DNA of 64,000 bases, from positions 186,001 through 250,000 of the forward strand of contig JAPSFT010000006.1 in NCBI GenBank assembly GCA_035063765.1. Reading direction: 5' to 3'. Each line of letters begins with the position of its first letter. The stretch's first letter is position 1. The stretch comes from Deltaproteobacteria bacterium (GTDB taxonomy: Bacteria > Myxococcota_A > UBA9160 > PR03). Under the pieces are notes generated by a model. That model searched no databases, had not been told where the DNA came from, and was given only the letters and a program-made list of their open reading frames with translations. The position numbers and the translations under genes were made by a program. Positions 4,889 through 22,240 of the stretch are shown here, in pieces.

Positions 4889-6238
4889 GTGATCGAGGTT
4901 CAGCCTTCCCGCCGATCCCGAGCGAAGCGCGCGGCGCAGCCGCTTCGCATCGGGCTGGCCGCGCTCGCCGTCGTCTCTGCGTTCGGGGCGCCGGCGGGTG
5001 ACGCCGAGGACGATGCCACGACGCAGCCCGCTCTCCGCGAGGGAGAGGTCATCGGCTTCGAGCAGGTGGATCGACTCCGCCCCTACCTTCCCGTCGAGCT
5101 GTGGCCCCACAAGGACTTCTTCTTCTACGAGGGCATGCAGCTCGAGATCGGCCCCGCCTTCCGCGACTACTCGCCTGCTGCCGTCTACCAGGAGGCGACG
5201 ACACGGAACCGCGGCAAGTCCAGCATCGGGCCGGACGGGAGTCTCGAGGGCTACGTCGCCGGCCAGCCCTTCCCGATGGACGAGATCGACTGCCAGGGCG
5301 ATCCGCAGGCCGGCGTCAAGGTCGCCTGGGACCTCGACCGGCGCTGGGAGGGCGCCGGCGTGTCCGGCCACGCCTACTACAGCTACTGGGATCGCGGCGA
5401 GGAGCTGCCGCTCTACTACGAAGGGACGGCACGCAACATCTGGCTCTCCGGGCGTCCCGAGCCCCAGTACGCCGACCAGGGCGGGGACCTCTTCCGCGGC
5501 GAGAAGCGCAAGCTCGCCTACGGCGTGGAGGTGCTGGCTCCCTACGACGCGAAGGGCATCGCGCTCATCAACTACCGCTACAAGTCCTCGCAGGGCCCGC
5601 TCGCCCAGGCGCGCAACGACGACACCTGGGTGTATGTGCCGACCCTGCGTAGGGTACGGCGCATCTCGACGGCGCAGCGCACCGATGCCGTCTCGGGCAC
5701 CGACTTCACCTTCGACGACTTCGGCGGCTTCTTCGGCGTCGTGCCCCAGTACGAATGGCAGTGCCTAGGCCGGATGGACATCCTCGCCCCGGTCAACTCG
5801 AAGGTCCGGGCGTACCCCTACGCGAAGAACCACAACTTCGGCCCGTACGGCCTCTCGATGGCGGACGACCGCTGGGAGCTGCGCAAGGCGATCAAGGTCC
5901 GACTCACGCCGAGGAACGCGGATCATCCCTACGCGCACAAGGACATCTACGTCGACGAGAACACGTCGGAGGCGCTCTACTCGTTCGCCTACGACCAGAA
6001 GGACGAGCTCTGGAAGATCATCTACCACAACAAGCGCTGGAGCGAAGACCACGACCGCTACAAGGCCTGGGAGGGTGTTCCAGAGCCGCGCGACAGCGTG
6101 AATGTCGCTGACGTCGTGATCAACGTGCAGACCGGAACCGGCAACCGCATCGAGTTCTGGGACGCGAACGGGACACCGCTGCCGGCCGGGAAGGCGCGCC
6201 AGTACATCGACGTCGGCCGACTGACCCGCGGCCGCTGA
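4889..6238 (+). CDS. DUF1329 domain-containing exported protein
   Basis: I chose the GTG at 4889 because GAGGGA lies eight bases upstream and the product then starts with a basic region and a hydrophobic stretch (LRIGLAALAVVSAFGAPAGDA), a good signal peptide. The mature protein of about 420 residues matches DUF1329 throughout: KDFFFYEGMQ, LPLYYEGTARN, INYRYK and the repeated DDTWVYVPTLRRVRRIS, which resembles outer-membrane lipoprotein-sorting folds. An upstream in-frame ATG at 4754 gives a poor N-terminus. The stop is followed after 10 bases by a DUF1302 gene, the usual partner. The pair is widely linked to the envelope and to hydrophobic substrates, but no biochemical function is assigned. 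Confidence 0.88.
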   Translation: MIEVQPSRRSRAKRAAQPLRIGLAALAVVSAFGAPAGDAEDDATTQPALREGEVIGFEQVDRLRPYLPVELWPHKDFFFYEGMQLEIGPAFRDYSPAAVYQEATTRNRGKSSIGPDGSLEGYVAGQPFPMDEIDCQGDPQAGVKVAWDLDRRWEGAGVSGHAYYSYWDRGEELPLYYEGTARNIWLSGRPEPQYADQGGDLFRGEKRKLAYGVEVLAPYDAKGIALINYRYKSSQGPLAQARNDDTWVYVPTLRRVRRISTAQRTDAVSGTDFTFDDFGGFFGVVPQYEWQCLGRMDILAPVNSKVRAYPYAKNHNFGPYGLSMADDRWELRKAIKVRLTPRNADHPYAHKDIYVDENTSEALYSFAYDQKDELWKIIYHNKRWSEDHDRYKAWEGVPEPRDSVNVADVVINVQTGTGNRIEFWDANGTPLPAGKARQYIDVGRLTRGR

Positions 6239-6248
6239 GGCCACGACC

Positions 6249-9149
6249 ATGCCTTGGAGCCGGATCGTTTCGGGGGCGACGGCGTGCGTCTGGTTCGCGG
6301 CCGCTGCGAGTCTCGCGGCCGAGGAGTCCGCGCTCGTCTCGCCGGACCAGGGTCGCTTCGAGATCCACGGCAGCATGGAGTACCAGCTGCGCATGCTGGC
6401 CGACGGGTTCGAGCCGGCGCGTGCCTACCTGAGTCAGTCGGCGCTCGTGCTGAACGTCGAGCCCGTCGCGGATCTCGTGACCGGGGGCTGGGGGCCGATC
6501 GAGCTGCTGACGGCCTTCGCGCGCCTCGAGGTGCGCTACGACTGCGTCTACAACGGCTGCGGCACGCTCGGTGCCGAGCGCATGTTCGGTGACAGCGCAC
6601 GCGTGTCGCCGGCACGGAATTGGGCGGATGCGACGACGCTCGAGCGCGTCGGACCCTACGACCTCCCCGGCCTCGGCATCCCGGTCCAGCACGTCCAGAA
6701 GAGCGACCTCGAGCTGCGCACGATCGTGGCGAACCCGGGCTTCGCGCCTGCCTTCGCGGTCGGCATCGATCCGGCGACCACCGCCGCCGCATTCGGTCCC
6801 GTCGAGGACGACCGCTTCTCGTGGAAGCGCATCCACGTGGCCGGCCAGGACGTCGCGCTGCCGCTCGGCCCCTGGCCCTACTCGATGAACATCGAGCCGA
6901 ACGGCGCGCTGCGACACGAGACGTCCACGACCCTGCCGCTGCCGCTGCGGCCGGCGACCGGCTCGCTCTACACGCCGTCGGCTGCGCTGCGCGAGGAGAA
7001 GCACCGTTTCGGCTCGTTCGACACCAACTTCGGCGAGCACGAGCTGGCCTGGAATCATGGCGCGAGCCAGAGCGAGACCTACGAGCTGAAGGAGGCCTAC
7101 CTCGACCTCGAGATGTTCGAATCGCGGCTCTGGATCCGCGCGGGCAAGCAGAACATCGTCTGGGGCAAGACGGAACTCTTCCGGACCACCGACCAGTTCA
7201 ACCCGATCGACCTGGCGCTCGCCTCGCTGCCGAGCCTCGAGGAGAGCCGCATCGCGCTGCTGTCGGTGCGCGGCACCTGGTCGTTCTACGACGTGGGCCC
7301 GCTCGAGGACCTGCGCCTCGAGCTGGCCGCGAACTTCGACCGCTTCGAGCCGATCGACCTGGGCCGCTGTGGCGAGCCCTATACGATCTGGCCGGTGTGC
7401 GCCATCTCGACGGGCCTGTGGGCGCACGGCACGACGGGGACGGGCGTCGCCGGGGTGGTGCACCCCCCGAACGGCTGGGACGACGTGAAGGGCGTCGAGG
7501 TGGGCGCCCGCGTCGAGTTCCGCTGGGACCGTTTCTCGTTCGCCTTGATGGACTTCTACGGCTACGAGGACGTCCCCACCGTCGAGCTCTTCAACGAGTA
7601 CCAGCGCAACGTGGACGTCCGGACCGGCCGGCCGCTCGATGCGGAGGGCCGACCGCTCACGCCCGACAACGCCCTCGACTTCGCGAGCGGCAACCGCCAG
7701 GCGTTCGACCTTGGCTGCAAGGCGTCGCTCGGCTTCGGGGAACGGGCGATGGACCGGCTCTTCCCGGGGAACTCCATCGATCTGAGCGGTCGCTGTCTGG
7801 GCGACCTCCTGAACCTGCAGGAGGACCTGGTGCTGGGACTCACGGTGCCGGAGGCAGTCGGGGGGTTGCTCGCCGGGCAGCCGACCGCCAACGGGCTGGG
7901 CCACGTTCTCCAGACGGTGCTGGAGATCCCCGCGGACCAGCAGGTGGACCTCGTCCCCCTGAACCGGGACCCGAACGACGGTCCAGGGGCCGGCCTGCTC
8001 CCGCTGGACTCGCTGAGCTTCCACCTGACCGACGAGCAGGAAGCGCTCCTGGGCTGCGGTCCGTTCTACGCCACCAACTGCGACACCGACGGGATCGACT
8101 TCTTCAACGCCGAGGCGAGCGTCGTCCTCCAGTCGTTTCCCGGGCTCGGGGAGAATCCCGTTGCGACCCGCTTCGAGGACGGGCGGCTCTACATCCTCCC
8201 CGGGGCGCGAGGGCCCGGCGACCCGAGCTACGACCCGCTCGCCGACGGCTGCACAGGGCCCGGCGACTCCCCTGATTGCGTTGCGGCGCATCCCCTCCTC
8301 GACCCGCGCACGGGGCAGCTCTTCGCCAGCGAGATGGCCGCCCTGTCGTACAACGTCGCGGTGACGCTCGCGGTGCTCGGGATCGCAGAAGGCGACGAGA
8401 AGTGCCAGCTCACCGATCTCGAGACGTGCGCTGCGATCCGGGCGCTGGTGGCGCTCTCGGGCTCGAGGCGCCCCGAGGTGCGCGCGGGCGGCAATGGCCG
8501 CTTCGGCCGCCGTGACTGGGGCTGGCACGGCGGCGGCGAGGCCGCGCTCGTCTATCCGAAGCGCAACGTGCTCGGCCTCTCCGTCGACTTCGCGGAGGAC
8601 CGGACGCGCTCGGCCTGGAGCCTCGAGTTCACCTGGATCGACGGCACGCCGTTCGCAAGCAACCAGTCGGCAGACGGGAACCAGCGGGCGGACACGTTCA
8701 ACCTGACCGTCTCGGTCGACCGGCCGACCTTCATCGATTTCCTGAATCCGAATCGGACCTTCTTCCTCAACAGCCAGCTCTTCGTCCGCTACGTCCCGGA
8801 CCACGACTCGAGCTTCGACACCGACGGGCCGCTCTCCCTGCTCGGCACGCTCGCGATCGCCACCGGCTACTACCAGGACCGGCTGCTCCCGACCCTGGTC
8901 TTCGTCCACGACGTGGGGTCCTCCTCCGGAGGAGTGATCGGCCAGGTCACCTACCGGTTCGACGAGGCCTTCTCCGCGACGGTCGGCGCGCTCGCCTTCT
9001 ACGGCAGCCCCGACGACAACCGCCTGCCGCGCCATCCCATCGCGCTCCCCGATGCGACGAGCGACTTCGACACGCGCACCCGCTTCGACGGGCTCTCGGC
9101 GATCGCGGAGCGCGAAGAGCTGTTCCTGAGGCTGCGCTGGACCTTCTGA
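6249..9149 (+). CDS. DUF1302 family outer-membrane protein, large and cysteine-paired
   Basis: A 966-residue protein with a signal peptide (SGATACVWFAAAASLAAEE) and alternating, aromatic-rich segments through to a terminal RLRWTF, the classic final beta-strand ending in Phe of an outer-membrane barrel. LWIRAGKQNIVWGKTELFR is a DUF1302 hallmark. Family members from Pseudomonas are nearer 600 residues. The extra length lies mainly between residues 480 and 760. Closely spaced cysteine pairs occur near residues 99/104, 374/384, 603/611, 668/677 and 719/727, suggesting disulphides in external loops. It is co-directional with the DUF1329 gene and probably under the divergent AraC regulator. A transport or envelope role is inferred from the barrel. 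Confidence 0.85.
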   Translation: MPWSRIVSGATACVWFAAAASLAAEESALVSPDQGRFEIHGSMEYQLRMLADGFEPARAYLSQSALVLNVEPVADLVTGGWGPIELLTAFARLEVRYDCVYNGCGTLGAERMFGDSARVSPARNWADATTLERVGPYDLPGLGIPVQHVQKSDLELRTIVANPGFAPAFAVGIDPATTAAAFGPVEDDRFSWKRIHVAGQDVALPLGPWPYSMNIEPNGALRHETSTTLPLPLRPATGSLYTPSAALREEKHRFGSFDTNFGEHELAWNHGASQSETYELKEAYLDLEMFESRLWIRAGKQNIVWGKTELFRTTDQFNPIDLALASLPSLEESRIALLSVRGTWSFYDVGPLEDLRLELAANFDRFEPIDLGRCGEPYTIWPVCAISTGLWAHGTTGTGVAGVVHPPNGWDDVKGVEVGARVEFRWDRFSFALMDFYGYEDVPTVELFNEYQRNVDVRTGRPLDAEGRPLTPDNALDFASGNRQAFDLGCKASLGFGERAMDRLFPGNSIDLSGRCLGDLLNLQEDLVLGLTVPEAVGGLLAGQPTANGLGHVLQTVLEIPADQQVDLVPLNRDPNDGPGAGLLPLDSLSFHLTDEQEALLGCGPFYATNCDTDGIDFFNAEASVVLQSFPGLGENPVATRFEDGRLYILPGARGPGDPSYDPLADGCTGPGDSPDCVAAHPLLDPRTGQLFASEMAALSYNVAVTLAVLGIAEGDEKCQLTDLETCAAIRALVALSGSRRPEVRAGGNGRFGRRDWGWHGGGEAALVYPKRNVLGLSVDFAEDRTRSAWSLEFTWIDGTPFASNQSADGNQRADTFNLTVSVDRPTFIDFLNPNRTFFLNSQLFVRYVPDHDSSFDTDGPLSLLGTLAIATGYYQDRLLPTLVFVHDVGSSSGGVIGQVTYRFDEAFSATVGALAFYGSPDDNRLPRHPIALPDATSDFDTRTRFDGLSAIAEREELFLRLRWTF

Positions 9150-12491: not shown

Positions 12492-13333
12492 GGCGCGCTC
12501 CGGACCCGGGCGGTGCCGGTGATGACCGCACCGCGCGGGCCCGTGCACGCGACGCGCAGCCGGTCGATCCCGGCGGCCCGTCCGGCGACCTCGCCGGTCG
12601 TCACGATCCGGTCCCCCGCGAAGACCGGCAGGCGGATCCGCACGTCGAGGGCCGTCCCCGGGATCGCCGCCGCTCCGTAGCGGCGCTGGAGCAGGTCGAA
12701 GACGTAGGCGAGGAAGAGCGTGCCCGTCGCGATCGAGGCGGGGAGGCCGACCGCCCGCGCCACCTCGTCGTCGGTGTGGAAGTTGACCTCGCCCTCGGGC
12801 TCGTAGAGGATCATCGCCTCGCGGGTCATCACGCGTTCGAGGGGCGCGAGGGTCTCGAGGGCCGGACCTTCCGGGAGCGCGGGCTCGCGCGGCGCCGGCC
12901 GCACGCCCTGGTCGGCCACCCGCTCCGAGTAGACGACGACCCCGGTGGTGACGCCGGTGGCGATCCGGGTGCCGGCGTCGTCCCGGGTCTCGGTGTCGAT
13001 CTCGACGTAGCGGCGCCCCTTGTGGACCCACTTGGCCGCCGCGCGGCCGCGTACGGTGAGGGTCGAGCCGAGGCGCGGCAGCGCATACACTTCGAGGCGT
13101 TGAGCGGCGTGGACCGACTGCGAGATGTCGTAGTGGCGGTCCGCGAGGTTGACGCCGTCGGCGGCGAGGAGCGAGACCGGAGCGAAGGGCCCCGGGGCCT
13201 GCTGGGTCGCCTGGAGGTGCCGCGAGACGGTCTTCTCGTCGAGCGCGTAGGAGAAGGAGCCCACGTCGGCGCCCGGCTCGATCGCGTCGAAGGGGACGGT
13301 CGCACGGCCGCGGGCGTCGGGGAGCTTCGTCAT
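12488..13333 (-). CDS. MaoC-like double-hotdog dehydratase/hydratase
   Basis: A 281-residue protein with two tandem hotdog domains, roughly residues 10-140 and 165-275, as in MaoC-type (R)-specific enoyl-CoA hydratases and related FAS1N/HTD2-like proteins. The C-terminal half contains NFHTDDEVAR followed by ATGTLFLAYVFDLL, resembling the region carrying the hydratase Asp/His active-site pair. Its stop overlaps the GTG start of the CoA-transferase gene, so the two are translated together. Likely role: hydration or dehydration of an acyl-CoA in a lipid pathway. The substrate cannot be read from the sequence. Confidence 0.82.
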   Translation of the reverse strand: MTKLPDARGRATVPFDAIEPGADVGSFSYALDEKTVSRHLQATQQAPGPFAPVSLLAADGVNLADRHYDISQSVHAAQRLEVYALPRLGSTLTVRGRAAAKWVHKGRRYVEIDTETRDDAGTRIATGVTTGVVVYSERVADQGVRPAPREPALPEGPALETLAPLERVMTREAMILYEPEGEVNFHTDDEVARAVGLPASIATGTLFLAYVFDLLQRRYGAAAIPGTALDVRIRLPVFAGDRIVTTGEVAGRAAGIDRLRVACTGPRGAVITGTARVRSAP

Positions 13334-13430
13334 GACGGTCGATCCTATCAGATCCGCGCCCGGCTAAAGACGGCCCCTCCCGCTTCCGATGCGCTCGCGA
13401 CACGCCCTTCCCGCCCTTCCGAGAAGCCCC

Positions 13431-13556
13431 ATGCGCGCCCCGTCCGCCCCCGTCCTGCTCGTCACCTGCACCCGCTGCCGGCGCCTGCACGCCCCCGTCG
13501 AGATCGAGAGATCCCACCCCCTCTGCCTTCGCTGTACGCCCCCGCGCGCCCGTTGA
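13431..13556 (+). CDS. Tiny zinc-ribbon-like protein (CxxC-15-CxxC)
   Basis: A 41-residue ORF with ATG at 13431 and a GAGAAG site five bases upstream; an in-frame ATG at 13389 would add 14 residues. The product contains CTRCRRLHAP and, 15 residues after the second cysteine, CLRC: two CxxC knuckles, as in minimal zinc ribbons. It lies between the divergent MaoC-like gene and the end of the MFS-HEAT gene. No family is recognised. The paired knuckles make chance less likely, but the ORF is short and Cys codons are not rare in this composition. Confidence 0.4.
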   Translation: MRAPSAPVLLVTCTRCRRLHAPVEIERSHPLCLRCTPPRAR

Positions 13557-13580
13557 GCGCGTCGCGGTGGCCCCGAAGCA

Positions 13581-16500
13581 TCAGGCGCCGCCCGCCGCGC
13601 GCTCCTCCACCCGCCGCAGGCGTTCGGCCAGCACGCGCAGGAGGTCGAAGGCCAGCTCCGGCATCTCGTGGACGAGCTCGCGCAGGCGCGCGCCGGCCAG
13701 CACCAGCACGCGCGCGTCGCTCGCCGCCACGACCGTGGCGCTGCGCGGCGCACCGTCGAACACCGCCATCTCCCCGAAGTAGGAGCCGGCGCCGAGCGCG
13801 TTGACGCGCTCCTCGCGCGCCGTCCCCGCCTGCTTGACGACGTCGACGGCCCCTTCGACGAGCAGGTAGAGCTCGTCGCCGGGCTCACCCTCGCGCACGA
13901 TCACCTCGCCCTTCAGGTACTCGACCTCGCGCGCGATCCGCTCCACGGCCTGGAGCCGCTCGAGCGACAACGCGGAGAGCAGCGAGACCTGCCGCAGCGC
14001 CAGGAGGTGCTTCATCGTCACGATCTCCTCCGGGTCGGCGCCCGAGTCTGCCGCGGCATGCGCCGCGCGGCGAACCCAGGGGGCGGGATGGGCCGCGGCG
14101 CGTGCGAGCGCCTCGGCCGCCGTGCGCGGGGGCGCCCCGAGCCGCCGCAGCGGCCCGAGCTTCTCCTCGACCGGCGCGAGCTCGAGCAGCACGGCGAGCG
14201 CCTGCGAGGCCTCGCGATCCCCGAGGTGCGTCAGCACCTCGAGCGCGTCGGCGCGCGCGCGGCCCGGGGCGTGCCGGAGGGCGCGCTCCACGCTGCGCAC
14301 GACCGGCCCGTCCTCGAGCCGCGCGAGGGCCTGGAGGGCGAGCCGCAGCGCGCGCGCGAAGGCGTCGGCGCAGGCGGCGGGCAGGAAGCGCGCGGCGACG
14401 GCTGCACCGGCGCTGGCGCCGGCGGGCTCGAAGCCCGCGCGCGCGAGCAGGAGCGACTCCCAGGCCTCGCGCACGTGCGCCGCGTAGGCCGCGCGCAGCC
14501 AGCCGCGCGCCTCGGCCGCCCCGCTGCCGGCGAGCGCGCGCAGGCCCGCCGCGACGGCGTGCTCCTCGGGCGCGTCGAGCGCGGCGCGCGCGGCCCGCGC
14601 ACCGGCGGCCCCGCCCCTTTCGAGCGCCCGGACGGCCGCGGTGCGCACCTCGCGCACGGGGTCGCGCAGCCCCCGGGCGAGCGAGGCCATGGCCTCGTCG
14701 CCCGGCTGGCTGCCGAGCAGGGGCAGCGCCGCGCGGCGCACCGAGGCGTCGGGGTCGGCGGCGGCCGCGAGCAGCGCGGCGATCGGTGGCAGCGCGCCCG
14801 GATCCGCCGCCCGCGCGAGCGCAGCAAGCGCCGCGGCGCGCAGGCGGGGCTCGGGATCGGCCAGGCGGCCCGCCGCCTGCGCCGCGAGCGCGGGCGGGAG
14901 CACCTCGAGCGCCGCCAGCGCAGACGCCGGATCCGCGAGCATCGCGCCGAGCACCCCGGCGCCGTCCGCTCCGAGCCGTGCGGCGGCCGCGGCGCGCACG
15001 CGCGCCGCGGGGTCGGTGAGGCGCGCCCGGAGCAGCGCCTCGAGCGCTGCGTCCGTGCGGAGCGGCTCGGGGAGCGCGACGACCGCGGCCCGGCGTACCT
15101 CGGGCTCGGGATCCGCGAGGCCGTCGAGCCAGGGCGCGCGGTTGCCGTCGTCGCCGGCCACGGCGAGCGCCGCGAGGCAGCCCGCCCGCACCCGCGCGCT
15201 CGGGTGCGCGAGCCCCGTACGGACGACGCCGGCGAAGCCCTGGGCCGCGAGCGGCGCGGCCAGCTCGAGCAGCGCCTGCCCGGCGCGCTCGCCGGGCTCG
15301 TGGAGCAGGGGCTCCCAGAGGGTCGCGAGCTCCGCCAGCTCGCGCGGGCCCAGCTCGCCGCGCAGCTCGCGCAGGTCGAGCCGGCCGGCGCGCAGCTCGG
15401 CGGCCAGCGCGCGCAGGTACTCGCGGCGCACCCGCAGGTTGGCGAGCAGGTAGAGCGCCGCGAGCGCGAGGCCCGTTGCGGCCAGGACCGGCAGCTCCAC
15501 GTGCCCCACGGCGAGCAGGACGACACCGGCGAGCGACATGCCGGAGTAGATCACGATGCCCTCGAGGAAGGCGCGCACCCGCGCGCGGAAGCGTCCCGGC
15601 AGGGCGTTGTAGGAGAGGTTGCGGATGGGGCCTGCGAGCGCGTTCTCGAGCAGCTCGCGGTTGGCGCGAGCGGCCACCGCCGCGGGCAGCCGGGGGTCGA
15701 CGAGCAGGCCCAGGAAGGCGCCGAGCGTCAGCACGGGATGGAGCAGGTTCGCGCTCGGCACGCCGAGCCGGCGGATCCCCCACGGCGCGAGGAGCTCCAC
15801 GGCGATCTCGACGCCGTTGCTCGCGGCCAGGTAGAGCGCCAGGAAGCGGGCCAGCGCCCGCTCGTCCGGGAACGCGTCGGCCAGCACCGCCGAGTAGAGG
15901 TACTGCATCGCGAAGAGCGCGAGCACCATCGCCAGCGCCGAGACCGTGAGCCAGCGCCCGAGCGGCGAGCGCCGCAGATAGCGCGCGGCGGCGCGCATGC
16001 CGGCGACCGAGGTCTCGTCCTCCTCGGCGGCGGCGAGCGGGCGCCAGGCTGCCAGGCGACGGCGGCCGGCGAGCGCGAGCGCGCCGAGCCCGGCCAGCGC
16101 ACCCGCCCAGCCCCAGAGCAGCGCCGTGGGGTCGAGGCGCGCCAGCACGCCGATCGCGGCGGCGCCGCCGAGCGCGCCCCCCACGCTCATCCCGACCGTG
16201 AGGAGCGGCACGAGACGCTTGGCCGCGAGCGTGTCGAAGCAGTCGCCGGCGAAGGTCCAGTAGTGGCTCGTGAGCACCGCCTGGGCCGCGAAGTAGACGC
16301 ACAGGAGCGCCGGCAGGGCGGCCTCCTGGCCGAGCCACAGCGCCGCCGCCGCGCCGCCGACGCCGAGCGCCGCGGCGAACGCCAGCTCGGCCAGCACGCG
16401 GTCGTTGCGCGCGCGCCCGACCCGCAGCGCGTAGAGCAGCGAGGCGCCGACGGTGACGGCCGACGCGAGCACGAAGGTCGCGGGCAGCCGTGCGGCGCCG

Positions 16501-16643
16501 AGCCGCGCCAGGAACAGCGCCTCCGCGCCGGCCAGCCCCATCGTCTGCGCCAGGGTCAGGAGCCCGCCGAAGGCGGCGAACCACGCGAAGCGCTCGCGCT
16601 CGGCGCGGCGCACCGCGGGGACGAGCCGCCAGGGCGCCTCCAC
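13581..16643 (-). CDS. MFS-like (nucleotide transporter-type) membrane protein with HEAT repeats and cyclic-nucleotide-binding domain
   Basis: A 1020-residue protein from the GTG at 16643, eight bases after the stop of the MMPL gene. Residues about 20-410 are a polytopic membrane domain resembling MFS or ATP/ADP-antiporter-type carriers. Residues about 430-860 are HEAT-like repeats with recurring units of the form LADPxPxVRxAAxxAL. Residues about 890-1010 form a cNMP-binding fold with VIVREGEPGDELYLLVEGAV and the phosphate-binding cassette FGEMAVFDGAPRSATVV, including its arginine. Such three-part proteins are known in related bacteria, but their substrate is not established. Same operon as the LolA-like and MMPL genes, so a role in envelope lipid traffic is an inference. 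Confidence 0.8.
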   Translation of the reverse strand: MEAPWRLVPAVRRAERERFAWFAAFGGLLTLAQTMGLAGAEALFLARLGAARLPATFVLASAVTVGASLLYALRVGRARNDRVLAELAFAAALGVGGAAAALWLGQEAALPALLCVYFAAQAVLTSHYWTFAGDCFDTLAAKRLVPLLTVGMSVGGALGGAAAIGVLARLDPTALLWGWAGALAGLGALALAGRRRLAAWRPLAAAEEDETSVAGMRAAARYLRRSPLGRWLTVSALAMVLALFAMQYLYSAVLADAFPDERALARFLALYLAASNGVEIAVELLAPWGIRRLGVPSANLLHPVLTLGAFLGLLVDPRLPAAVAARANRELLENALAGPIRNLSYNALPGRFRARVRAFLEGIVIYSGMSLAGVVLLAVGHVELPVLAATGLALAALYLLANLRVRREYLRALAAELRAGRLDLRELRGELGPRELAELATLWEPLLHEPGERAGQALLELAAPLAAQGFAGVVRTGLAHPSARVRAGCLAALAVAGDDGNRAPWLDGLADPEPEVRRAAVVALPEPLRTDAALEALLRARLTDPAARVRAAAAARLGADGAGVLGAMLADPASALAALEVLPPALAAQAAGRLADPEPRLRAAALAALARAADPGALPPIAALLAAAADPDASVRRAALPLLGSQPGDEAMASLARGLRDPVREVRTAAVRALERGGAAGARAARAALDAPEEHAVAAGLRALAGSGAAEARGWLRAAYAAHVREAWESLLLARAGFEPAGASAGAAVAARFLPAACADAFARALRLALQALARLEDGPVVRSVERALRHAPGRARADALEVLTHLGDREASQALAVLLELAPVEEKLGPLRRLGAPPRTAAEALARAAAHPAPWVRRAAHAAADSGADPEEIVTMKHLLALRQVSLLSALSLERLQAVERIAREVEYLKGEVIVREGEPGDELYLLVEGAVDVVKQAGTAREERVNALGAGSYFGEMAVFDGAPRSATVVAASDARVLVLAGARLRELVHEMPELAFDLLRVLAERLRRVEERAAGGA

Positions 16644-16651
16644 CCGGCCGC

Positions 16652-19381
16652 CTACCCGACCCGGCTCGCGGTCGCGAGCATGCGCTGCGACTGGACCCGG
16701 TTCAGGTTGCGGTAGACGAGCGCCGCGGTGCGCGGATAGCGGCGGCGCAGGCGCTCGAGGTCGCTCCCGTCGAAGCGCACGAGCCGCACGTCCTCGAGGG
16801 CGTGCACGTCGGCCGCGCGGCGGGTCGAGAAGAGCCCGATCTCGCCGACCACGTCGCCGCGGCCGTACTCGAAGAGGGCCACCGCACCGCTCTCGCGGGT
16901 GGCGCACAGCCGTCCCTCGAGCACGACGTAGGCGTGCCGGCCCTCGTCGCCCGCCCGCATCAGGAGCTCGCCCGCGCCGAGCCGCCGCACGGTCGCCATC
17001 AGCACGAAGATCCGGGCCTGGCGCCTGCTCATGCCGTCGAAGAGCGGGATCTGGTGCTGCGGGTCGGCCCCGAGGTCGAGGGTCAAGACCTCCCACAGGG
17101 TCACCACCCGCACGCCGGCGCACAGGGCCGGCGTCACGGTGACGTCCGCCACCCAGCCGAGCGCGAGCGTGGCGGCGGCCAGCAGGCCGAACTGGGCCTG
17201 GCTGCGCAGCTCGGAGAAGGCCAGCACCGCGAAGCCGAGGCACAGCCCGACGAGCGTGAAGGTGACCGGGCGCAGGACGGCGCGCAGCGAGGCGAGCAGC
17301 GCGCGGCGCTCGTCGGCGAGCCGACGCGCCTCGGTGTTGAAGCGGGCCATGAAGTGGATCGTGTCGTCGGCGGCGATGCCGAGCGCGATGCTGCCGATCA
17401 GGCTGGTCCAGGGATTCAGGGGGATGCCCGAGACCCCGAGTGCACCGTAGTAGAGCGCGATCGGCACCACGTTCGGGAACAGCGCGAGCAGGCCCACGCG
17501 CCACGAGGTGAAGAGCGCCGCCAGGCACAGGTAGATCGCGGCGAAGGCCGCGACGAGGCTGCTCCACTGGCCGCGCGAGAGGTCGTCGATGCTCTCGCCG
17601 AGCAGCACCACGTTGCCGGTCGGCTCGCCGCGCAGCCCCGGCGGCAGCGCGGCGAGCTGCGCGTCGATGCGCGCCACCAGGTCGGCGACGCCGCGCGAGT
17701 CGCCGACCGTCGAGCGCACCACCAGGTTGGCGGTCCGGTACTGCGCGTCCACGAGCCGGCTCATCTCGTCGTTGGCCCCGAAGAGCAGGAGCTGGTGGAC
17801 CTGCCGCCGGGTCTCGGGCACCGCGTAGGCGGCGGGATCGCCGTCGTGGAGCGCCTGGTTGAGGAGCTTCACGGTGTCGACCAGCGAGAGCGTGCCGCCC
17901 ACCTCGGGCTGCTGCGCGAGCCAGCCCTGGAGCGCCTCGAGGGCCCGCAGGTTGGCGGGCTCGAGGAACGTCTCGGGCGCGTCGCCCTGCACCGGGATCT
18001 GGATCAGGTTGGCGCCGCCCAGGCGCTCGTTCACGGCCTCGAAGGCGACGCGCAGGGGGGCCCCGGGGTCGAGGTTGCCCACGAACTCGGTGGACGTCTC
18101 GATGCCCCGCGCCGCGAGGAGCGACATCCCGATCGCAGCGAGGGCCACGGCGATCACCGCGCGCCGGCGCGTCCAGGCGAGCCGCGCGAGCGCCTCGGCG
18201 AGGCGGTCGATCCAGTCGCCGGAGCGCGGCGGGCGCAGGGCGCGCCCGCGCCCGAGCGCCAGCACCGCCGGCGTGAAGGTGAGAGCGGCCAGCACCGCGA
18301 AGGCGACCCCGAGCATCGCGAACAGCCCGAAGCGCCGGATCGCCACGATCGGCGAGAGCGCGAGCGAGGCGAAGCCGACGGCCGTGGTGAGCCCCGCCAG
18401 CAGCACCGGCACGCCGACGTCGTCGAGCGCCGCGCGCGCGATCGCGAGCCGGCCCCGCCGGTCGGGGGCGGCGGCGGCGGCGTTCTGCAGGGCGCCGAAC
18501 TCCGCCACCACGTGCATCGCGTAGGCGAAGCCCACCGTCACGACCAGCGGCGGGAGGATGGTGGTCACGAGATCGAGGCGCAGGCCCAGCCAGGCCAGCA
18601 CCCCGAGCGTCCAGACGAGCGCCAGCGAGACCGTCGCGATCGGGACCAGGACCCCCGTCGCCGTGCGGAACGCGACGGCCAGCACGCCGCACAAGACGAG
18701 CACCGTCGCGGGCAACAGGAGCGCGAGCTCGCGCAGGAGCAGGTCGCTCAACCGGGCGGTGGCGTAGGGGATGCCGCTGATCCAGACCGCCGCGGGGCCG
18801 GCCTCCTCGCGCGCCACCGCCTCGATCCGGTCGGCGAGACCGCTCGCCACCAGCGCCGCGTCGTCGAGCCGCTCGGGATACACGAAGATCGCCGCCGTGC
18901 GCGCGTCCTCGGAGACCAGCGTGCCGCGGTAGAGGGGGCTCGCCAGCACGCGCGCGCGCAGGGCGGCCCGCGCGGCGGGATCTGCGGGAACGTCCTCGAG
19001 CAGCGGCACCACCTCGATGTCGCCGCCCGCGCTCCGCACGTCGGGGACGGTCGTGAGCGACACCACGTGGTGGACGTGGGCGAGCGCGCGCAGCCGCGCC
19101 GAGAGCCGCCCGATCCGCGCGAGCGCCTCGGGCGCGAAGACGTCGTCCGCGCCGAGCGCCACCACGAAGGGCTCGTCGCTCCCGAGCAGCTGGCGCGCGC
19201 GCTCCCAGTGCTCGCGTGCGTCCCCGCTCGCGGGCAGCAGGTGCACGGGCGCAGGATCGACCCCGAGACGGAGCCTGCCGCTGCGCCAGTCGACGAAGCC
19301 GGCCGCGGCGAGCAGGGTCGCCGCCGCCAGCGCGGCGAGCAGCAGGCGGGGACGCGACAGGATGGCGTGGAGCCAGCGAAT
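16652..19381 (-). CDS. MMPL/RND-type exporter with C-terminal cyclic-nucleotide-binding-like domain
   Basis: An RND-superfamily exporter with two blocks of membrane helices, each after a large periplasmic loop. Near the C-terminus (about residues 770-900) lies a cNMP-binding-like fold with GDEGRHAYVVLEGRLCA and GEIGLFSTRRAADV. The first transmembrane helix, SRPRLLLAALAAATLLAAAG, is encoded upstream of the first standard start codon (GTG at 19246), directly after the in-frame TAG of the preceding gene. I therefore place the start at ATT 19381, giving 909 residues; a CTG start is also possible. The usual LolA-like partner gene precedes it. Likely role: export or transfer of lipids or hydrophobic molecules to the outer envelope. 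Confidence 0.8.
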   Translation of the reverse strand: MRWLHAILSRPRLLLAALAAATLLAAAGFVDWRSGRLRLGVDPAPVHLLPASGDAREHWERARQLLGSDEPFVVALGADDVFAPEALARIGRLSARLRALAHVHHVVSLTTVPDVRSAGGDIEVVPLLEDVPADPAARAALRARVLASPLYRGTLVSEDARTAAIFVYPERLDDAALVASGLADRIEAVAREEAGPAAVWISGIPYATARLSDLLLRELALLLPATVLVLCGVLAVAFRTATGVLVPIATVSLALVWTLGVLAWLGLRLDLVTTILPPLVVTVGFAYAMHVVAEFGALQNAAAAAPDRRGRLAIARAALDDVGVPVLLAGLTTAVGFASLALSPIVAIRRFGLFAMLGVAFAVLAALTFTPAVLALGRGRALRPPRSGDWIDRLAEALARLAWTRRRAVIAVALAAIGMSLLAARGIETSTEFVGNLDPGAPLRVAFEAVNERLGGANLIQIPVQGDAPETFLEPANLRALEALQGWLAQQPEVGGTLSLVDTVKLLNQALHDGDPAAYAVPETRRQVHQLLLFGANDEMSRLVDAQYRTANLVVRSTVGDSRGVADLVARIDAQLAALPPGLRGEPTGNVVLLGESIDDLSRGQWSSLVAAFAAIYLCLAALFTSWRVGLLALFPNVVPIALYYGALGVSGIPLNPWTSLIGSIALGIAADDTIHFMARFNTEARRLADERRALLASLRAVLRPVTFTLVGLCLGFAVLAFSELRSQAQFGLLAAATLALGWVADVTVTPALCAGVRVVTLWEVLTLDLGADPQHQIPLFDGMSRRQARIFVLMATVRRLGAGELLMRAGDEGRHAYVVLEGRLCATRESGAVALFEYGRGDVVGEIGLFSTRRAADVHALEDVRLVRFDGSDLERLRRRYPRTAALVYRNLNRVQSQRMLATASRVG

Positions 19382-19387
19382 GGCGAC

Positions 19388-20182
19388 CTAGTTCCCCTGG
19401 GTCAGCGCGCGCTCGCTGAAGAGCTTGTCCGGCAGATTCGTGTCGATCTCGAGCCTGCCGAGCTCGACGCGCGTCTCGGTCTGCTCCTGGAGGTCGCGCA
19501 GCACCACCGTGTGGGCGGCCCAGACCTCGCCGTGCTTCGTGAGCGACGACGGGTCGGCGGTGAGCTCCTTCGCCAGGCTGCCGCCGCGCGCGAAGAGCTC
19601 GAGCCGGAGAGGCACGCAGGTCTCCTGGTCGATCCAGGCGCGGACCTCGCCGTACTCGGACTCCGGCGGGGGCCGGAGCGTCACCACGTAGGTGGCGCGG
19701 CCCGCCTGCTCGGCGTCCGGCTGGCGCTCGACGGCGGCGGCCTCGAAGAGGTGGCGCAGCCGGCGCATGTCCTCGTAGCTGAAGTCGGTCCCGAAGAGCG
19801 AGCCCGCGAGCGCGTGCGAGGTGATGCGCCGCACCTTCTGGAACTCCGGCAGGTAGACGAACACGTCGACCGTCTCGGGCCGCTCGATCAGCAGGTAGGC
19901 GGAGCCGCGCAGGTCGGGCGGGAAGTCGATACGGATCAGCGAGCGCGAGAGGTCGCCCTCCCACTTCTTCCAGTAGGCGGTGCCGGCGAGGGTGCGCGTG
20001 CTGCCGGTGCGGTCCTTCGACTCGAAGCGCACGCTCTGCTCGCTCGAGCGCTGCGGCAGGTTGCGGCGCAGGCAGGCCTCGATGGGCGCGACGCCGGCGG
20101 CGGCCTCGGAGCCGGCGCGGGCGGGCGAACCCGGTGCCATCGCGAGCGCGAGCAGGAGCCCCCAGCCCGGAGCGATCCGCAT
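19388..20182 (-). CDS. Outer membrane lipoprotein-sorting (LolA-like) protein
   Basis: A 264-residue protein with a signal peptide (GLLLALAMAPGSPARAG) and the COG2834 outer-membrane lipoprotein-sorting pattern: GTAYWKKWEGD, DFPPDLRGSAYLL, VYLPEFQKVRRI and LFGTDFSYEDMRRL. Proteins of this family have a LolA-like half-barrel that binds acyl chains and very often stand next to MMPL exporters, as here. The TAG stop is followed in the same frame by the MMPL coding sequence with no spacer. Likely role: periplasmic carrier handing hydrophobic cargo to or from the exporter. It heads a three-gene operon. Confidence 0.88.
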   Translation of the reverse strand: MRIAPGWGLLLALAMAPGSPARAGSEAAAGVAPIEACLRRNLPQRSSEQSVRFESKDRTGSTRTLAGTAYWKKWEGDLSRSLIRIDFPPDLRGSAYLLIERPETVDVFVYLPEFQKVRRITSHALAGSLFGTDFSYEDMRRLRHLFEAAAVERQPDAEQAGRATYVVTLRPPPESEYGEVRAWIDQETCVPLRLELFARGGSLAKELTADPSSLTKHGEVWAAHTVVLRDLQEQTETRVELGRLEIDTNLPDKLFSERALTQGN

Positions 20183-20275
20183 CTCTTGTCTCCTCGGCGA
20201 CCCCCGCAGGGCCCGGAGCGTAGCGGTCCATACCCTTATACCAGCGACTCGGGTACCTTGGCCCGACCTCGGCGG

Positions 20276-20409
20276 CCTGCGCGGAGAGAGGATCGCAGGG
20301 TCCCGCTCGAGCTCGAAGCCCGGTGAACCCCGTCAGGCCCGGAAGGGAGCAGCGGTAGCGGGGCAACGGCGGCGAGCGGGGGCGCCCTGCGGTCTTCTCT
20401 CCGCGCAGG
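20276..20409 (+). ncRNA. ffs: Signal recognition particle RNA (4.5S-type)
   Basis: The conserved SRP core is unmistakable: GTGAACCCCGTCAGGCCC runs into GGAAGGGAGCAGCGGTAGCG (20323-20360), including the GGAA tetraloop and the asymmetric loop that bind Ffh. The ends pair as a long hairpin: CCTGCGCGGAGA at 20276 with TCTCCGCGCAGG at its 3' end, and CGCAGGG with CCCTGCG inside. The RNA joins Ffh to target membrane proteins to the translocon. It lies just upstream of dnaX, an arrangement seen in other bacteria. End positions are inferred from base pairing. Confidence 0.92.
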
Positions 20410-20495
20410 GGGACAGTCCCGGCGATTCGGCGATTCTCCGCGACGTCCGCCGAGCGCTCCGCAACGCGAATCGCCGAATCGCCGGGACTGTCCCC
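20409..20495. repeat. Palindromic repeat element with 28-bp perfect arms between SRP RNA and dnaX
   Basis: The left arm (20409-20436) reads GGGGACAGTCCC then GGCGATTCGGCGATTC; the right arm (20468-20495) is its exact reverse complement, with a 31-base centre. The arm itself contains the short palindrome GGGGACAGTCCC and a tandem GGCGATTC. This is the structure of a REP/BIME or MITE-like element. A single-arm copy with one changed base lies at 46234-46262. The element starts at the last base of the SRP RNA and stops two bases before the dnaX start codon. No transposase is nearby. Confidence 0.75.
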
Positions 20496-20497
20496 GC

Positions 20498-22240
20498 TTG
20501 AGCTACCAGGTTCTCGCTCGCAAATGGCGGCCGCAGCGCTTCGATGACGTGACGGGCCAGGAGCACGTCACGAGGGCGCTGCGCAATGCGATCGCGCAGG
20601 GCCGGGTCCCGCACGCGGTGCTCCTGTGCGGGCCGCGCGGGGTCGGCAAGACCACGATCGCGAGGATCCTGGCGCGCTGCCTGAACTGCGAGAAGGGGCC
20701 GACCGACACGCCCTGCGGCGAGTGCAGCTCGTGCCTCGAGATCGCCGCGGGCACCTCGACCGACGTGCAGGAGATCGACGCCGCGAGCCGCACCTCGGTC
20801 GACGACGTGCGCGATCTGATCGAGTCGATCCGCTACGCCCCCCAGCCCGGCAAGCACCGCATCTACGTCGTGGACGAGGTGCACATGCTCTCGGTCCCGG
20901 CCTTCAACGCGCTGCTCAAGACGCTCGAGGAGCCGCCCCCGCGCAGCCTCTTCGTGTTCGCGACGACGAACCCGGAGAAGATCCCCTTCACCGTCACCTC
21001 GCGCTGCCAGCGCTACGAGCTGCGCCGGCTGCCGACCGCCGAGATCGCGGCGCGCCTCGCCGAGGTGGCGCAGGCCGAGGCGGTCGCGATCTCGCCGCGC
21101 AGCCTCCAGGCGATCGCGCGCGAGAGCCAGGGCTCGCTGCGCGACGGGCTCACCCTGCTCGACCAGGTGATCGCGGTCGGCGGCACCGAGGTGGACGACG
21201 AGCGGGTCGCCCAGGTCCTCGACCTGGTCGACCGCCACGTGCTGGTCGAGGCGGTGGCCGCCTGCGTCGACGCCGATCCCCCGCGCGCGCTCGCCGCGCT
21301 GGGGCGTGCCGCCGCGCTCGGGATCGACGCGAAGCGCCTGGGGGCTGCGCTGCTCGGGGTGCTGCGCGATCTCGTCGTGCTGCGCGTGGCGCCCGACGCG
21401 CCCGAGCTGGTCGAGGGCAGCGATGCCGAGCTCGAGGAGCTGCGCGCCCTCGCTGCGCGAGCCGACGCGGGCCGGGTCCGGCGCATGTTCCGCGCGCTCC
21501 TGCGCGAGCAGGAGGACCTGGCCTGGGCGCCGGAGCCGATGGCGGTGCTCGAGATGGCCCTGGTGCGGCTCGCGACGAGCGCGAGCGGCGAGGACGCCGC
21601 CGCCCTGCTCGCGCGCCTCGACGCGCTCGAGCGCCGGCTCGCGGGCGCCGGGCCACCCGACGAGCCCGGATCGGGCGGCGGCGGTGGCGGCGGCGGCGGC
21701 GGCAGCGCGGGTCGGGGTCCGCAGGGCGCCACGGAGAGGCCGGCGCGCTCCGCCCGAAGACCCGCCACGCCCGCGGCCACCACCGACGCCCCGCCCCTCA
21801 CCCCTCCCCCCTCCGCGGTCCTCGACCGCCTCCGGGCGGCCCTCGCCGAGAGCGACCGTGGCCTCGCCCTCGCGCTCGAGGACGCGACGCTCCTCGAGCA
21901 CGATGCGCAGCGCCTGGTGCTCGCCGTCGCCGAGCCCTTCGCCACGCGCCGGCTCGAGCGCCGGCTCGGAGATCTCGAGGCGGCGGCCGCGCGCCTGTTC
22001 GGGCGCCCGCTGCGGCTCGTCCTCCGAAGCGCGGAGGCACCGGCGCCCCCGCACGCGGCGGGCGCCTCCCCCCCGCGCCCCGACGCCGACGAGGAGCTCC
22101 TGCGCCGCCGACGCCGCGCGGCGCTCGACCACCCGGCCGTGAACGCGGCGCTCGAGATCCTCGGCGGCGACGTCGTCGAGGTCCGGCCCCTCGGGAGCGG
22201 GCGCAGCGGCTCCCTCGCTGAGCCCGGAGGCGAGGGATGA
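20498..22240 (+). CDS. dnaX: DNA polymerase III subunit gamma/tau
   Basis: The TTG at 20498 gives MSYQVLARKWRPQRFDDVTG, the standard DnaX N-terminus, so the start is confident even though no ribosome-binding site is visible: the preceding bases are the right arm of the palindromic repeat. The 580-residue clamp-loader ATPase has Walker A GPRGVGKTT near residue 46, a four-cysteine zinc module (CLNC ... CGECSSC), a DEVHMLS Walker B and sensor SRC. A run of about ten glycines near residue 390 separates the ATPase and helical collar from a poorly conserved tau-like C-terminus. It overlaps ybaB by four bases. No A-rich slippery site was seen, so a separate gamma form is not predicted. Confidence 0.95.
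   Translation: MSYQVLARKWRPQRFDDVTGQEHVTRALRNAIAQGRVPHAVLLCGPRGVGKTTIARILARCLNCEKGPTDTPCGECSSCLEIAAGTSTDVQEIDAASRTSVDDVRDLIESIRYAPQPGKHRIYVVDEVHMLSVPAFNALLKTLEEPPPRSLFVFATTNPEKIPFTVTSRCQRYELRRLPTAEIAARLAEVAQAEAVAISPRSLQAIARESQGSLRDGLTLLDQVIAVGGTEVDDERVAQVLDLVDRHVLVEAVAACVDADPPRALAALGRAAALGIDAKRLGAALLGVLRDLVVLRVAPDAPELVEGSDAELEELRALAARADAGRVRRMFRALLREQEDLAWAPEPMAVLEMALVRLATSASGEDAAALLARLDALERRLAGAGPPDEPGSGGGGGGGGGGSAGRGPQGATERPARSARRPATPAATTDAPPLTPPPSAVLDRLRAALAESDRGLALALEDATLLEHDAQRLVLAVAEPFATRRLERRLGDLEAAAARLFGRPLRLVLRSAEAPAPPHAAGASPPRPDADEELLRRRRRAALDHPAVNAALEILGGDVVEVRPLGSGRSGSLAEPGGEG

Follow-up and report, generated by a model that had tools for sequence, protein, structure and literature searches.

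Proteins of the NTT-HEAT-cNBD type, in which an NTT/TLC transporter core is followed by HEAT repeats and a cyclic nucleotide monophosphate (cNMP)-binding domain, are a published architecture; it has been proposed that cyclic AMP (cAMP) could adjust ATP uptake by such proteins, and Deltaproteobacteria are among the NTT holders listed (Major, Embley and Williams, 2017; PMC5381601). The identical domain order is found in the third gene of a three-gene operon in a stretch of 64,000 nucleotides from a Deltaproteobacteria bacterium (contig JAPSFT010000006.1, positions 186,001 to 250,000; hereafter the window), where it is preceded by genes for a LolA-like carrier and for an MMPL/RND pump that ends in a cNMP-binding domain of its own. 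In the available text of the 2017 paper the function of these proteins is uncharacterised too, and neither MMPL nor LolA is mentioned as a neighbour. We give about an even chance to the reading that this locus is a cyclic-nucleotide-responsive envelope operon, which would tune lipid or lipoprotein traffic and nucleotide exchange together.

The hopanoid transporter HpnN and the transporters MmpL3/4/5 share with the MMPL protein here an RND core of 12 helices and a pair of periplasmic domains, but the latter scores far under the curated cut-offs of the HpnN and HAE3 models. To our knowledge, the characterised HpnN and MmpL3/4/5 proteins carry no cNMP domain. SLC9C1, SthK and MloK1, all of which are among the matches, likewise place a cytosolic cNMP-binding domain behind a membrane transport domain; their transport domains, however, are unrelated and move ions, not lipids or nucleotides. 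MMPL and LolA-like parts, which are separate genes here, lie in one polypeptide in TOL_3187 of Thalassolituus oleivorans, for which the available text reports no cNMP domain (PMC6304351). A literature search of limited coverage found no paper that joins MMPL with cyclic nucleotide binding, with or without LolA; the MMPL-cNMP fusion is apparently undescribed, its newness being unproven. The three-gene operon is a new local combination, of which the NTT-HEAT-cNBD architecture was already known.

The three genes and their C-terminal domains

The first-pass annotation had described three adjoining genes with almost no spacing, and this is what is found (Table 1): the gap between the LolA-like and MMPL genes is about 0 nucleotides and that between the MMPL and NTT-HEAT-cNBD genes is 8. 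It had also predicted that both transporters end in the cNMP fold, which the profile searches bear out, since the MMPL tail scores 63.4 bits and the NTT tail 82.1 bits against PF00027 (curated cut-off 27.5). The phosphate-binding cassette that it singled out in the third protein, FGEMAVFDGAPRSATV, is present, and its E958 and R967 are conserved in 18/18 aligned proteins; the corresponding E849 and R857 of the MMPL cassette are kept in 21/24 and 22/24 aligned tails, respectively. The window genome holds 10 cNMP-domain matches, from which we estimate, assuming about 4,000 genes, that two cNMP transporters would lie side by side by chance with a probability of about 2%; because of this low value, and because two other genomes have the same adjacency, it appears to exceed chance. 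A sigma-70 promoter scan of positions 13300-20560 returned no site.

The label MFS, given earlier to the core of the third protein, has to be replaced. The window protein alone has no MFS profile match, and no TLC match at E ≤ 1; among 18 aligned NTT-HEAT-cNBD proteins, 16 match PF03219 (TLC ATP/ADP transporter; best E 1.1e-8) and 11 match TIGR00769 (NTP/NDP exchange transporter). Its AlphaFold model (mean predicted local distance difference test, pLDDT, 84.8; predicted template modelling score, pTM, 0.56), compared by VIA-align, fits AtNTT1 with Z 36.6 (root-mean-square deviation, rmsd, 2.8; 400 aligned) and Z 36.5 (rmsd 2.6; 405 aligned), followed by Chlamydia NTT1 at 31.3, whereas the first non-NTT chain reaches 30.0. 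The name NTT-HEAT-cNBD is used because the relatives match the TLC and TIGR00769 models and because AtNTT1 is the closest fold. From profiles and model, the core is of the NTT/TLC ATP/ADP-translocase type, with nucleotide exchange as its predicted activity; the repeats behind it include a HEAT_2 match (E 7e-14).

The LolA-like carrier scores 139.5 bits against PF17131 (cut-off 30) and the MMPL protein 105 bits against PF03176. The AlphaFold model of the latter (pLDDT 87.4) has the RND fold, with MmpL4/5, NPC1L1 and HpnN as nearest folds; its best NCBIfam model is TIGR00921 (HAE3), scored under the cut-off, and it falls well short of both models for the HpnN hopanoid transporter (TIGR03480, 58.4 vs. 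751.85 bits; NF052374, 13 vs. 1100). The cNMP domain starts past residue 770, its modelled strands and helices come in the fitting order, and a profile built from 24 MMPL tails matches cAMP/cGMP-binding structures, those of PKA, PKG, SthK and CRP among them (E about 1e-26 to 1e-12); judged by profiles and by strand order in the model, the MMPL tail is thus a cNMP-binding fold. In five MMPL-cNMP genes (L045, L050, L053, L056, and L061) the cNMP domain is itself followed by a conserved C-terminal extension of about 150-220 residues (LTLIPLVEVAWADG...), which has no Pfam match in the one member scanned (L050) and is TerB-like by eye only.

Translation of the MMPL protein probably begins at a non-standard codon coupled to LolA termination, perhaps ATT or CTG just past the LolA stop: the frame (19240-19390, minus strand) contains no ATG, GTG or TTG between that stop and residue 48, though homology starts right after the stop, and the two sister-genus genomes introduced below have, at the equivalent place, a CTG that overlaps the stop of LolA (CTGA). 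A LolA-MMPL fusion by stop read-through, which the single frame of the window would allow, was rejected; the two genes do not share a frame in those genomes.

Table 1. Features of the LolA/MMPL-cNMP/NTT-HEAT-cNBD locus, in window coordinates
Feature	Position	Strand	Basis and details
LolA-like gene	19388..20182	minus	PF17131 E 1.3e-40; 264 aa, N-terminal hydrophobic signal-like stretch
MMPL/RND (HAE-3-like) gene with C-terminal cNMP-binding domain	16652..19387	minus	PF03176 E 5e-30; up to 911 aa
MMPL cNMP-binding domain, residues 801-884	16736..16987	minus	PF00027 E 2e-17; cassette RGDVVGEIGLFSTRRAADV, E849 and R857
NTT-HEAT-cNBD gene, whole	13581..16643	minus	1020 aa, GTG start
NTT/TLC-type 12-helix transporter core, residues 1-424	15372..16643	minus	fold match and profiles of relatives
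HEAT-repeat region of NTT-HEAT-cNBD	14004..15371	minus	PF13646, PF02985; all-helical repeats in AlphaFold model
NTT-protein cNMP-binding domain, residues 907-992	13668..13925	minus	PF00027 E 2.8e-23; cassette YFGEMAVFDGAPRSATVVA, E958 and R967

Distribution of the two transporters and of the gene order

NTT-HEAT-cNBD occurrence was counted in 80 genomes of the order; the family of the window genome (G000), f1, includes a congener (G001) and two members of one sister genus (G002 and G005). About 28 genomes of the order carry MMPL-cNMP genes, and a second order of the class has them as well. In a sample of 331 genomes from the phylum, no tailed match outside the class passed E 1e-110, with at most two candidates scored per genome. 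A scan of genome contigs gave only one distant Myxococcales locus, at 28% identity. LolA lies directly upstream of MMPL-cNMP in 18/24 loci and in 10/16 more, some loci being at contig edges. By these sequence comparisons LolA and MMPL-cNMP form an old family of gene pairs that is restricted to the class. The tailed label can be placed on the MMPL tree with 2 changes, compared with 8.9 when labels are shuffled; the tail is an old trait and, on the simplest reading, was lost at least once.

NTT-HEAT-cNBD proteins occur in about 28/80 genomes of the order. Across 67 genomes the presence of one transporter is associated with that of the other (16/12/7/32; Fisher p 0.0015, uncorrected for relatedness). 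The expectation that the gene order would extend beyond the strain holds: the full set is found in three of the six genomes of family f1 (G000, G002, and G005), where the sister-genus copies are 59-64% identical to that of the window genome and the G002 copy is truncated within the HEAT region where its contig stops, and the LolA-MMPL-cNMP part of the set is class-wide. The three-gene set as such is narrow, being confined to this family and absent wholly or partly from close relatives. In G004 the NTT gene adjoins dnaX, without LolA or MMPL; G003 has MMPL-cNMP genes and no NTT match; and G001, which is 93% complete, has neither transporter, and only a hypothetical gene separates its dnaX from infA-fusA, an interval that in G005 contains Lnt, cyclase, LolA, MMPL, and NTT.

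Proposed mechanism, cyclases and competing explanations

In the mechanism proposed, an HAE-3-type MMPL/RND pump would pass lipid or lipoprotein-like cargo to the periplasmic LolA-like carrier, and the NTT-type carrier would exchange ATP/ADP or similar nucleotides between the two sides of the inner membrane. Class III cyclases would make cytosolic cAMP, or possibly cGMP, to be bound by both tails, and binding would raise or lower the activities of both transporters together. The C-termini of both transporter families are cytosolic by family topology, and therefore both tails would see cytosolic nucleotides. Binding of a cNMP is strongly indicated by the sequence of the NTT tail and moderately by that of the MMPL tail; the gating of transport by binding, its direction and the cargo are all inferred.

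A predicted source of the ligand adjoins the operon in the sister genus. In G005, divergent from LolA, there is a gene for a protein of 1567 residues that combines AAA regions with a pair of class III cyclase domains, and after it an Lnt-like gene (LNT_N E 9e-19; CN_hydrolase 2e-22); on the equivalent flank of G002 the first cyclase domain is present, with 78% identity to that of G005, before the contig ends. By eye, domain 1 of the G005 cyclase keeps the Asn/Arg motif (NxxxR) and has Gly in place of the first metal-binding Asp, domain 2, compared with CyaB, keeps both metal-binding Asp residues and has Asp/Gln in place of Asn/Arg, and the usual purine-selecting Asp is in neither. The two domains could be complementary halves with one competent site between them. 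This cyclase strengthens the earlier suggestion that a second messenger gates lipid or nucleotide trafficking, as does the predicted NTT identity of the third protein. Also in its favour, the window genome has four cyclases, one of them (L074) with the catalytic residues looked for, and G001, which lacks both transporters, has no PF00211 cyclase match; G016, G027 and G079, likewise without a cyclase match, have no NTT gene, nor, in the two searched for MMPL, a tailed copy. It is possible, though on balance doubtful, that a cAMP-gated RND lipid pump with a cyclase in the same cluster, a cAMP-gated nucleotide exchanger, and the Lnt-like acyltransferase of the sister genus would make up one cAMP-controlled envelope-biogenesis cluster. 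The window genome also has a second cyclase/Lnt neighbourhood (L122:4654-12137; G000 C7), in which a cyclase-AAA gene and an Lnt-like gene stand together, next to a gene for a cNMP and sigma-54 activator protein.

Several observations weigh against shared control by a cyclic nucleotide. In the window genome all four cyclases lie away from the operon, and a BLAST search with the G005 domains found none near the other MMPL-cNMP loci searched, beyond G002 and G005; because these two share one genus, the adjacency is probably a single event. Cyclases are present in 76/80 genomes of the order and their association with the transporters is not significant (p 0.12), so that co-occurrence with such nearly universal genes is weak evidence. 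The two transporters are not neighbours in most genomes, 12/28 genomes with MMPL-cNMP show no NTT-HEAT-cNBD, and outside family f1 no NTT-HEAT-cNBD locus that was read has MMPL beside it. Lastly, the loop of the MMPL cassette is shorter than usual by one residue (Glu-to-Arg spacing 8, vs. 9 in the NTT tail), and this tail may bind another ligand or none. The cautious label "cNMP-like", used earlier for the MMPL tail, is nevertheless too weak, given the conservation of the cassette Glu and Arg.

The explanation that best survives beside the preferred one, though we consider it unlikely, is that only NTT-HEAT-cNBD senses a cyclic nucleotide, the MMPL tail being a former cNMP domain that serves oligomerisation, folding or protein contacts, and the neighbourhood a product of ordinary operon shuffling. 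It would account for the contrast between the invariant, canonically spaced NTT cassette and the shortened MMPL loop, for the loss of the MMPL Glu in 3/24 and of the Arg in 2/24 tails, for the tailless MMPL relatives that nest inside the tailed group on the tree, and for the five members with a further stretch past the tail. Yet the MMPL Glu and Arg are kept in about 90% of proteins at about 40-65% identity, which is more than a scaffold needs, and the tail is retained in some 40 loci.

We regard it as improbable that the neighbourhood arose by chance, when the common LolA-MMPL-cNMP pair landed beside NTT-HEAT-cNBD in one family's ancestor, with no shared regulation. The confinement of transporter adjacency to family f1 among the loci read, and the NTT gene that adjoins dnaX in G004, would fit such an origin; three genomes from two genera, however, preserve the tight spacing, the two transporters co-occur across the order more than expected, and side-by-side cNMP transporters are a rare event on the estimate given above. 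Least probable of all is that both tails bind a different small ligand (another nucleotide, cyclic di-GMP or a lipid) and do not sense cAMP or cGMP, for although CRP-fold domains are known to switch ligand, as in some CRP-family proteins, and the G005 cyclase lacks the first metal-binding Asp in domain 1 and the purine-selecting Asp in both, the phosphate-binding cassettes keep the canonical Glu and Arg, and the window genome has cyclases of which one, L074, has an intact-looking active site with the expected Asp, Lys, Asp, Thr, Asn, and Arg all present.

Flanking features and implications of the proposed cyclic-nucleotide control

Upstream of the operon and divergent from LolA, about 110 nucleotides from its start, lies a gene for small signal recognition particle RNA (ffs; RF00169; 20294-20394, plus strand), just upstream of dnaX. 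Between ffs and dnaX, at 20409-20495, there is a perfect 28-nucleotide inverted repeat (GGGGACAGTCCCGGCGATTCGGCGATTC) with a 31-nucleotide spacer; its 20-nucleotide end has 70 genomic copies at up to two mismatches, 35 per strand, against 0 for a reversed control, a pattern that identifies it as a dispersed element resembling repetitive extragenic palindromes. Beside dnaX, G002 has a cyclopropane-synthase-like gene (L126:1440-2648; CMAS E 1e-35), and G005 has a gene of similar appearance (L118:3453-4328). About 4 kb beyond the operon in the window, at 4889-9149 on the plus strand, genes for a DUF1329 protein (with a LolA_like match) and a DUF1302 protein form an envelope-type pair.

If the two tails bind cAMP, the cAMP control proposed by Major et al. 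(PMC5381601) would be set in a genomic context in which a cyclase is part of the neighbourhood. Bacteria would then control lipid export across the envelope through a ligand that gates an RND pump directly, and not by transcription only, and the operon would offer a testable handle on the role of NTT proteins in presumably free-living bacteria.

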